Under the pieces are notes generated by a model that did not search any database, was not told the origin of the DNA, and saw nothing but the letters and a program-made list of their open reading frames with translations. The position numbers and the translations under genes were made by a program. DNA of 64,000 nucleotides from Verrucomicrobiota bacterium (GTDB lineage Bacteria > Verrucomicrobiota > Verrucomicrobiia > Palsa-1439). This document shows positions 7,436 to 11,599 of the stretch, in pieces (within the stretch, counting starts at the first letter, position 1; each line of letters opens with the position of its first letter). The DNA is taken from NCBI GenBank assembly GCA_016871575.1, contig VHCW01000013.1:1-64000 (forward strand), in the 5' to 3' direction.

Positions 7436-7454
7436 GCTTTTCAGAGGGGCTTCG
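7436..7454. repeat. Interspersed repeat, copy 1
   Basis: GCTTTTCAGAGGGGCTTCG. The same 19 bases occur at 7549-7567 and 9024-9042. This copy lacks the longer flanking identity shared by the other two. The stretch 7344-7747 has no gene; it holds this repeat, copy 2 and the 22-bp array. Confidence 0.7.
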
Positions 7455-7539: not shown

Positions 7540-7582
7540 GGCATGATTGCTTTTCAGAGGGGCTTCGCATGGGCGCCAGCAA
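7540..7582. repeat. Interspersed repeat, copy 2
   Basis: A 28-base stretch from 7540 to 7567 is identical to 9015-9042. The next 15 bases are also similar, including a GGCGCCAGCA block. The element contains no open frame of its own. Confidence 0.75.
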
Positions 7583-7662: not shown

Positions 7663-7750
7663 GTTGACAATGCGCGCCGCTCATATTGACAATGAGCACT
7701 TTCTGTGTTGACAATAGACTCGTAGTATGTTGACAATAGCAACATCGATG
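7663..7750 (+). promoter_or_regulatory. Four direct repeats at an exact 22-bp period (iteron-like operator)
   Basis: TTGACAAT occurs at 7664-7671, 7686-7693, 7708-7715 and 7730-7737, each exactly 22 bases after the last. The 13-14 bases between are not conserved, so only one face of the helix is marked every two turns. The last unit ends on the ATG at 7748. Although each core contains a perfect -35 hexamer, none is followed by a -10 box at 16-18 bases. The array is therefore more likely a cooperative protein-binding site, probably for the regulator encoded just downstream. Iterons of plasmid origins have a similar period, but no Rep gene is present. Confidence 0.85.
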
Positions 7751-8800
7751 AACAACGAACACACAAACCGAGGTGAGGAAATAATAGCGTTCCTTATCGA
7801 GAAGGTTCCTCACCATTCTGACGATTTAGTCCGAATTGTTTGCGACAAGTTCGGTATAACGCGCCAAGCGGTCAGTAGATACCTGCAAGAGTTGATCGAT
7901 AAGGGACAGATTGTAGCCACTGGGAATACAAATCAGCGGCGTTATGAACTCCCACTTCTACGAGAGGAATCATTCCAATTCCCCATCAAGAATTTGGAGG
8001 AAGACGTTGTGTGGCGTGACAAAATATCTCCCTTCATTGCACATCTACCGTCCAACGTTGTTAGCATATGGCAATACTGCGTGAGCGAAATGGTCAACAA
8101 TGCCATTGACCACTCCGATGGCACCATGATGACCGTGCGCGTGAAACAGAATGCTGCGGTGACAGAGATCGTCGTTTGGGATGATGGCATAGGTATTTTT
8201 CGGAAGATTAAACAAGCCTGCAATCTCGATGATGAAAGACATGCGGTGCTGGAACTCGCCAAGGGAAAACTAACTACGGACCCAGCACGACATACGGGCG
8301 AGGGGATCTTTTTCACGTCACGAATGCTTGACGATTTTGCGATTCTCTCTGGCGATGTATATTTCAGCCACAAGCATGAAGAAGAGGAAGACTGGATTTC
8401 CCAACGCGAAAGGCCTGATACTGGTACTGCAGTATTTATGATGTTGGCAAATAAGAGTGCTCGTACTACCAAAGAAGTGTTTGATTACTTCGCACTCGAA
8501 GAGCATGACTACGGCTTCACCAAGACTGTCGTCCCGGTGCGAATGGCTCAGCACGGTGCTGAACAATTGATCTCTCGTTCGCAAGCGAAGCGGCTTCTCG
8601 CTAGGGTTGATCGCTTTGCTATTGTGCTGTTTGACTTCGCTCGCGTGGATACGATCGGGCCAGCATTTGCCGACGAAATATTCAGAGTGTTTGAGCGCAC
8701 GCACCCCAATATTCGACTTGTCCCAATAAACACCGTGCCTGACGTAGAGCAGATGATTACGCGAGCGCGTTCGGTTCCACACACACAAACCGAAGTATAA
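7748..8800 (+). CDS. Winged-helix, GHKL ATPase and STAS-like (DUF4325) regulator
   Basis: The 350-residue protein has three parts. Residues about 10-70 form a winged helix (DKFGITRQAVSRYLQELIDKG). Residues about 95-230 form a GHKL ATPase with N-box SEMVNNAIDHSDG, G1 WDDGIGI and G2 GEGIFF. Residues about 260-340 form a STAS-like DUF4325 domain (LFDFARVDTIGPAFADEIF). It thus joins DNA binding, an RsbW-like ATPase and an antagonist-like domain in one chain. The start at 7748 was preferred to ATG 7727 because the fourth 22-bp repeat covers 7727-7747. Its base composition is visibly poorer in GC than its neighbours, suggesting transfer. Autoregulation through the upstream repeats is likely but inferred. 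Confidence 0.82.
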   Translation: MNNEHTNRGEEIIAFLIEKVPHHSDDLVRIVCDKFGITRQAVSRYLQELIDKGQIVATGNTNQRRYELPLLREESFQFPIKNLEEDVVWRDKISPFIAHLPSNVVSIWQYCVSEMVNNAIDHSDGTMMTVRVKQNAAVTEIVVWDDGIGIFRKIKQACNLDDERHAVLELAKGKLTTDPARHTGEGIFFTSRMLDDFAILSGDVYFSHKHEEEEDWISQRERPDTGTAVFMMLANKSARTTKEVFDYFALEEHDYGFTKTVVPVRMAQHGAEQLISRSQAKRLLARVDRFAIVLFDFARVDTIGPAFADEIFRVFERTHPNIRLVPINTVPDVEQMITRARSVPHTQTEV

Positions 8801-9014: not shown

Positions 9015-9057
9015 GGCATGATTGCTTTTCAGAGGGGCTTCGAATCGGCGCCAGCAG
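9015..9057. repeat. Interspersed repeat, copy 3
   Basis: Bases 9015-9042 are identical to 7540-7567. Similarity continues through GGCGCCAGCA to 9057. It abuts the gene remnants at 8872-9014. Confidence 0.75.
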
Positions 9058-10726: not shown

Positions 10727-11599
10727 ATGGAAACAGAAGTGTCTTGTCCCAGTTGCGGCAACCAATTCAACGTCGAACACGACGGCAGGAGTGGTGTGGC
10801 AGCGTGTCCGTATTGCGGCGCAGCGGTCAAGTTTGACAATCCGCGCAAGGAACGTGTCATTCCACACGGCGCGCCGCCCCGCCCCGGGACAGAAGAGATC
10901 CACCATCTTCCATCGCACGCCAACCTTCCCGTTTCGCATAAGCAAGTCCCAAAAGTAGAGGAGCCGAAACCGCGGGTCTCCATCATGGACATGGTGTTCT
11001 GGCTGCTCCTCATCGGAGCCGTCATTGGCCTTGCTTGGTGGTGGTTCCACCGGTCGCCGCCACCGGGGAAACAAGAAGCGCCTGCGCCGGCAACGACACA
11101 CGCTCCCGCACAACCAACGCCCGCGCCGCCGGTGCCTGTCGCGGCAAAAGAGTTTGTTGAGGTGACATTGGCGAATCCGGGGTTTGAGAAGGCCTTGGAA
11201 GGCTGGAGGATTGTGCAGGCGGCCGGGTTGGTCCGCGCGATGACCGATGCGGCGCGCTCCGGCAAGCGCGGCCTGCGCGCGGCGGATGATTCCGAGCAAC
11301 GCAACACCATTGTGAGTTGCGCCTTCCCATTTGTGCCGGGCGATGCCTACGAGTGCCGGTTCTGGGCGCGCATCGTGTCCGGCAAAGGCGCAACGGTGTC
11401 CCTGCAATTCATCAATGCAGAAGGGCTGGCCATCGAGAACAGCGTGGAGATTCCCGCCGGCGCGAAGCAGTGGAAGGAGTTCACCATAAAGGCCACTGCG
11501 CCAAGCCAGGCGGTCAAGGCCGAAATCACGATTGCCACGACCGGCGAAGGAACCGCACTGGCAGACTTTGACGACTTCCAGTTATTCCACGCCCGCTGA
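10727..11599 (+). CDS. Membrane-anchored zinc-ribbon protein with a carbohydrate-binding-like domain
   Basis: The 290-residue protein starts with a zinc ribbon (C7xxC10 and C27xxC30). A polar linker, one transmembrane helix at about residues 87-107 and a Pro/Ala-rich linker follow. The C-terminal region, residues about 150-285, looks like a CBM4/9-type jelly roll: EVTLANPGFEKALEGW, YECRFWARIV and ADFDDFQLF. The topology would place the ribbon in the cytoplasm and the jelly roll outside. Function is unknown. It is convergent with nrdJ, with 14 bases between the stops. Confidence 0.7.
   Translation: METEVSCPSCGNQFNVEHDGRSGVAACPYCGAAVKFDNPRKERVIPHGAPPRPGTEEIHHLPSHANLPVSHKQVPKVEEPKPRVSIMDMVFWLLLIGAVIGLAWWWFHRSPPPGKQEAPAPATTHAPAQPTPAPPVPVAAKEFVEVTLANPGFEKALEGWRIVQAAGLVRAMTDAARSGKRGLRAADDSEQRNTIVSCAFPFVPGDAYECRFWARIVSGKGATVSLQFINAEGLAIENSVEIPAGAKQWKEFTIKATAPSQAVKAEITIATTGEGTALADFDDFQLFHAR

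Follow-up and report, generated by a model that had tools for sequence, protein, structure and literature searches.

A helically phased repeat array as candidate autorepressor operator of wHTH-GHKL-DUF4325 regulator genes

What is the role of four identical short repeats that stand, evenly spaced, directly ahead of a single regulator gene? In the window, i.e. the whole 64-kb stretch of DNA under analysis, TTGACAAT was found four times on the plus strand, each time as an exact match and at a constant period of 22 bp, as the preliminary description of this DNA had it. That description also held that the bases between the cores are not conserved, which is correct except for the 3-4 bases 5' of each core; these read (A)ARG across the family. 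The extended unit consensus is (A)ARG-TTGACAAT, with (A)ARG-TTKACAAT as the family form. The last unit reaches the start codon, as described, with the ATG at 7748 falling inside the fourth 22-bp unit. The features of the locus are as follows.

7664..7671, plus strand: repeat unit 1, exact TTGACAAT
7686..7693, plus strand: repeat unit 2, exact TTGACAAT; TTGACA at 7686-7691 is the likeliest (putative) -35 element
7708..7715, plus strand: repeat unit 3, exact TTGACAAT; GACAAT at 7710-7715 is the likeliest (putative) -10 element
7730..7737, plus strand: repeat unit 4, exact TTGACAAT; 18 bp from its first T to the start codon
7748..8800, plus strand: wHTH-GHKL-DUF4325 regulator gene, 350 aa plus stop; ATG at 7748, coding 7748-8797
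7766..7948, plus strand: winged helix-turn-helix, residues 7-67; recognition helix about residues 39-51, TRQAVSRYLQELI
8000..8449, plus strand: GHKL ATPase/kinase-like domain, residues 85-234; E114/N118, DDGIG, HTGEGIFF
8573..8773, plus strand: DUF4325 STAS-like domain, residues 276-342; invariant SRSxAxR, G304-F307-D309

The array and its regulator gene in the window

Only one further exact copy of TTGACAAT occurs in the 64 kb, at position 10833. Three or more identical, equally spaced 8-mers were found in none of 1265 other 300-bp stretches of the window and in none of 20000 shuffles of the array region. In the organism's own genome (5.19 Mb) the array is present once, and a regulon search there gave no second convincing array. 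The second-best site in that genome, ATTGACAAT..N14..GTTTACATT with two mismatches (C199:817-847, in L004), lies where a transposase/recombinase-like operon begins and is probably a chance match.

The gene looks foreign, as had been noted, because its GC content is 48.2% in a window of 61.1% GC. Its product was read earlier as a winged-helix/GHKL/STAS-like protein, and the profile matches and the AF2 model (mean pLDDT 91) agree. The model has the winged helix as H-H-H-wing at residues 7-67 with high pLDDT; the Pfam MarR_2 match of this part is weak (E 1.6e-4, under the gathering cut-off), and its profile matches ArsR/MarR-type chains in the PDB. Pfam HATPase_c_2 matches with 33.5 bits (cut-off 27.4), and the GHKL part has a fold match to SpoIIAB (1til_E, Foldseek E 7.6e-6, TM 0.71 on the target). 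Among 75 aligned family members, the GHKL box residues N118, D145, G147, G149, G184 and G186 are invariant, and E114 is kept in 74. The C-terminal part matches Pfam DUF4325 (PF14213) over residues 279-333 with 49.3 bits (curated cut-off 23, E 3.9e-13), and S276, R277 and S278 are invariant in the same alignment. The phospho-acceptor Ser/Thr of anti-anti-sigma factors at the start of helix 2 is absent from nearly all of the 75 members, mostly with Q or P in its place: position 305, equated with SpoIIAA Ser58 from sequence and predicted secondary structure, is Q in 67, P in five and S in one.

A repeat of another kind, AAATTGCTTTTCAGAGGGGCTTCGCAACGGCGCCAGCAGGGGGGTTAA, brackets the gene in the window (7436-7454, 7549-7567 and 9024-9042) and occurs 32 times genome-wide (contigs C105, C129, C143, C148, C170, C180 and others). 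Since the copies elsewhere sit between ordinary metabolic genes, it looks like a REP/MITE-type element and not a cassette array.

Recurrence of the array across the protein family

The preliminary description had proposed looking for phased repeats 5' of homologues. Among 289 genomes from the phylum of the window, a search turned up three more full-length homologues, with identities of 63, 37 and 37% in the matched region. Words of the TTGACAAT type lie just 5' of the gene in L006 (at 1367 and 1389) and in L008 (at 1401, 1424 and 1435), and L007 has a TTTACAAT-rich version in the same place. With a profile built from the four proteins, species-representative genomes yielded at least 549 relatives. 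The 80 most similar of these were fetched together with seven viral loci; smaller unselected samples agree with the similarity-picked set. Isolates with a homologue include Paraburkholderia tropica PSP659 (L031) and Synechococcus sp. 8F6 (L073).

Within 220 nt upstream, at least one exact TTKACAAT on the coding strand was found at 79 of the 87 loci (21 of 3735 control windows), and at least two at 52 (one of 3735). On the opposite strand the count is one. Consecutive copies are separated by 21 bp (48 cases) or 22 bp (79 cases), and rarely by 11, 12 or 42-44 bp; all of these spacings, the rare ones included, keep helical phase. A motif-free test gave the same offsets: exact 7-mer repeats occurred at offset 21 in 46% and at offset 22 in 64% of 89 loci, compared to 3% and 2% in the control, with other offsets near background. 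The suggestion of one helix face every two turns is thereby well supported family-wide. The most common array has three units, 21 and then 22 bp apart (31 loci), and the last unit mostly ends up 10-40 bp from the start codon, although units overlap the start codon in some loci, e.g. L008.

Where the words have drifted the spacing is kept, as for GTTGTCGA in L081 (21, 22), GTTGACGA in L031 and TTTACAT in L095/L096 (22). No array was found upstream in L066 and L093. Distant members on viral contigs (L180, L181, L182, L184-L186) have other phased words upstream, AGTTAA-like as judged by eye, which suggests operator turnover with kept spacing in these.

Array and gene occur together in Lentisphaerae, Planctomycetota, Cyanobacteria, Chloroflexi, Proteobacteria and other genomes. 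Repeats at 21/22 bp 5' of homologues from so many phyla support the earlier operator reading well and go against the outcome that the preliminary description had named as its refutation, namely homologues lacking phased repeats. Dozens of unrelated bacteria have nearly the same array ahead of the gene, and the array is thus very probably the on/off switch by which the regulator controls itself. Double arrays in 47 gene-bearing genomes are nearly all at the wHTH-GHKL-DUF4325 gene; those away from it number 12, which does not exceed expectation given the 10 of a reversed control pattern, as read from the table, and one of the 12, L107, encodes no relative. The exact triple array occurs once in the 289 genomes of the window's phylum, at this gene, and not at all in 399 Pseudomonadota genomes; the few gene-bearing Pseudomonadota genomes have more degenerate arrays.

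No conserved neighbor gene was found among 91 loci, and the gene is therefore the only constant partner of the array; it looks monocistronic. There was no link to defense islands; PADLOC matched only HTH-type families with weak scores, and close relatives of the regulator were not found in the plasmid and phage collections. These observations bear on two other explanations. Plasmid iterons are direct repeats, and the 22-bp-period array resembles them, so that the units could belong to a mobile element, as iterons for its replication or partition. That alternative, raised in the preliminary description, found no support, in that the gene is a chromosomal solo gene with neither a rep/par gene nor a conserved neighbor, and the arrays have only 2-4 units with a core of 8-12 bp; we consider it extremely unlikely. 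Alternatively, the gene might be controlled by a different regulator, encoded by host or phage and transmitted separately, whose binding sites the units would be. The roughly 20 unrelated viral contigs with the array but no gene (see below) are in favor of a recognizer in trans, but the array tracks the gene across many phyla with no other shared gene nearby, and the gene itself encodes a wHTH. We therefore hold a separate regulator to be improbable, less so than iterons.

Relatives without the winged helix serve as natural controls. In the Pseudomonadota samples, repeats were found at five of the seven wHTH-bearing members (L134, L135, L136, L137 and L203, that of L137 being degenerate), while the divergent wHTH members L138 and L139 have no clear array. 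Among seven GHKL/DUF4325 relatives with no recognizable wHTH, two-gene or fused, none has an array. The difference (about p = 0.01, one-sided) comes from a small sample in which several comparators lacking the wHTH begin immediately after a preceding gene, where a promoter may be absent. Four Pseudomonadota loci (L199, L205, L213 and L215) carry a GHKL gene of ~300-350 aa beside a DUF4325 gene of ~110 aa, with neither wHTH nor array.

Probable promoter overlap and a candidate autorepressor circuit

The -35 consensus of sigma70 promoters is TTGACA, and their spacer optimum is 17 bp. In the arrays of the (21,22) type, base 3 of unit 1 is G in all 36, giving TTGACA, and base 8 of unit 2 is T in 34 of 36, compared to 23 of 36 in unit 1 (p 0.003) and 15 of 36 in unit 3 (p 2e-6). 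The 21-bp step sets the TTGACA of unit 1 and the KACAAT of unit 2 apart by a 17-bp spacer. No other conserved promoter element was found in the ~45 bp 5' of unit 1, nor downstream to the start. From this we infer that the array overlaps the core promoter, with unit 1 as -35 and unit 2 as -10 in the three-unit form. In the window the 22-bp step makes the spacer 18 bp, not 17, and the promoter roles of units 2 and 3 are assigned by analogy with the three-unit arrays, including that of L010, a 79%-identical homologue with three units. Unit 4 is then probably within the 5' untranslated region of the regulator gene.

The array could be nothing more than a strong tandem sigma70 promoter that no dedicated protein binds. 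The match to the -35 consensus, the likeness of KACAAT to a -10 element and the 17-18 bp spacers between consecutive units would all fit, but sigma70 needs neither the third unit, nor the ARG ahead of the cores, nor a 21/22 step from unit 2 to unit 3. Moreover, the same genomes are otherwise without tandem -35 boxes at such spacing, and divergent words such as GTTGTCGA keep it. A promoter alone is thus very unlikely to account for the array.

The reading we prefer, at a probability of about 0.83, is that the array is a candidate autorepressor operator of the gene behind it, to which the regulator itself would bind. It builds on computed features (the array, its conservation, the spacing rule and its uniqueness to the gene) and on predicted domain folds, and the binding by the regulator, repression, cooperativity and gating it contains are inferred from these. 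The winged helix of one protomer would bind each TTGACAAT unit, and with units two helical turns apart the protomers would line up on one face of the DNA, where they could touch and bind cooperatively. In the three-unit form, unit 1 would be the -35, unit 2 the -10, and unit 3 would lie in the leader. Since the units would cover promoter elements, bound protein would block RNA polymerase and so repress the gene. The SpoIIAB/RsbW-like GHKL domain and the STAS-like DUF4325 domain probably gate assembly or DNA binding, with nucleotide and some signal as input. Base 3 of the motif (G/T) associates with recognition-helix residues 42-45 in an unweighted comparison; on the tree this is unsupported (three supported independent pairs, no power).

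The opposite sign of control was also considered, i.e. that the site serves autoactivation or on/off switching, the protein recruiting RNA polymerase in one GHKL-STAS state. Since every unit contains a -35-like TTGACA and the array lies upstream, polymerase contact would be permitted as well, but units that span the putative -35 and -10, the leader and, as in L008, the start codon have the geometry of a repressor site. We find activation unlikely, though less so than a separate regulator.

The closest known system is CapK/CapS, which pairs an HTH-STAS-GHKL kinase with a STAS-wHTH repressor (EMBO J 2026, PMC13373217). CapS regulates its own promoter through sites that overlap promoter elements, and the pair illustrates how an autorepressor circuit that responds to damage can be built from GHKL kinase, STAS domain and wHTH (PMC13373217). 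Activation by single-stranded DNA is a further feature of CapK/CapS. The three domain types (HTH, GHKL, STAS) are shared with the window regulator. In contrast to the two adjacent genes of CapK/CapS, the window family has a single gene of the order wHTH-GHKL-STAS with no partner; its repeats are not TTAA palindromes but direct TTKACAAT units with a 21/22-bp step, there is no conserved neighbor where CapK/CapS has a downstream immune operon, and, unlike in CapK/CapS, the canonical STAS phospho-site carries no serine. The family could be a one-protein functional relative of CapK/CapS, although the features that define CapK/CapS, as far as tested, were not found in it.

SpoIIAB/RsbW share the GHKL fold with the family, which conserves the N-box E-x3-N spacing and the DxGxG and GxG boxes. 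Unlike in these proteins with their SpoIIAA/RsbV antagonists, the GHKL domain is fused to a DNA-binding domain, and the STAS-like domain has Gln/Pro where SpoIIAA/RsbV have the phospho-serine. The C-terminal domain belongs with DUF4325 by its score above the curated cut-off of PF14213, but many DUF4325 proteins have only ~110 aa, and some are encoded next to a separate GHKL gene, with neither wHTH nor array (compare Fhv_0047 of a Francisella prophage). Phased direct-repeat operators and plasmid iterons likewise place tandem units on one helix face; units of the window family differ in that they appear to double as core promoter elements, and no replication genes accompany them. The open-access literature, with most subscription journals outside this search, contained nothing relevant on the motif or DUF4325 beyond CapK/CapS and no operator of such a form, in line with the preliminary description. 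Judged from sequence comparison, this putative operator architecture is real and family-wide, and it is apparently undescribed, in a protein family of unknown function.

Arrays without the gene in viral contigs, and what the array means

When IMG/VR was scanned for the triple array, 112 stretches matched. Filtering out redundant entries, those with near-identical spacers and those located inside ORFs left 20. The controls gave none (24/25-bp spacing) and one (letter-swapped). TAAGG, which was not part of the search pattern, is conserved 5' of each core in the 20 arrays. The gene stands directly behind the array in only one array-bearing viral contig. A profile search found no family member in 27 array-bearing contigs, which have a single array site each and are possibly fragments, and the family HTH profile had no match near the gene-less arrays in the fetched loci. 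Since viral contigs have the array without the gene, the two are separable. Final T in unit 2 occurs in 12 of the 20, i.e. without preference, and the promoter-overlap signature is therefore not seen there. Cultured relatives of the array-bearing phages were found only at <60% identity, and the bacterial sample for triple arrays was much smaller (688 genomes), which limits the comparison of phage-specificity accordingly.

Single TAAGG-TTGACAAW triple arrays at 21/22 bp with no wHTH-GHKL-DUF4325 gene are found in L254, L233, L310/L326, L299, L256, L272, L278, L244, L260, L290/L323, L320, L327 and others. The array precedes a P22-type coat gene in L254 and a P22-type portal gene in L233, while in L310 and L256 it is followed by a small NrdR-type zinc-ribbon gene and then terminase; in other array-bearing viral contigs the neighboring genes point the opposite way. 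The zinc-ribbon proteins (L310:3383-3541, and the ORF of 51 aa in L256, 50 nt behind the array start) are free-standing NrdR N-terminal zinc ribbons of 51-53 aa with no ATP-cone, in environmental phages.

A speculative reading, which we regard as unlikely, is that of a portable stress switch, by which uncultured phages would have put the operator of a host regulator before capsid, portal or terminase genes, leaving late expression to a wHTH-GHKL-STAS protein of the host. If true, either the phages sense the host, or the host silences the phage. Where phages have only the operator, the question arises as to which protein reads it.

Lastly, a widespread family of unknown function, wHTH-GHKL-DUF4325, gains in many phyla a cis element with a consensus and a spacing rule. 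The circuit would be one of a single gene and a single operator, the units of which appear to serve as -35 and -10 too, and the cis element makes the family directly testable.
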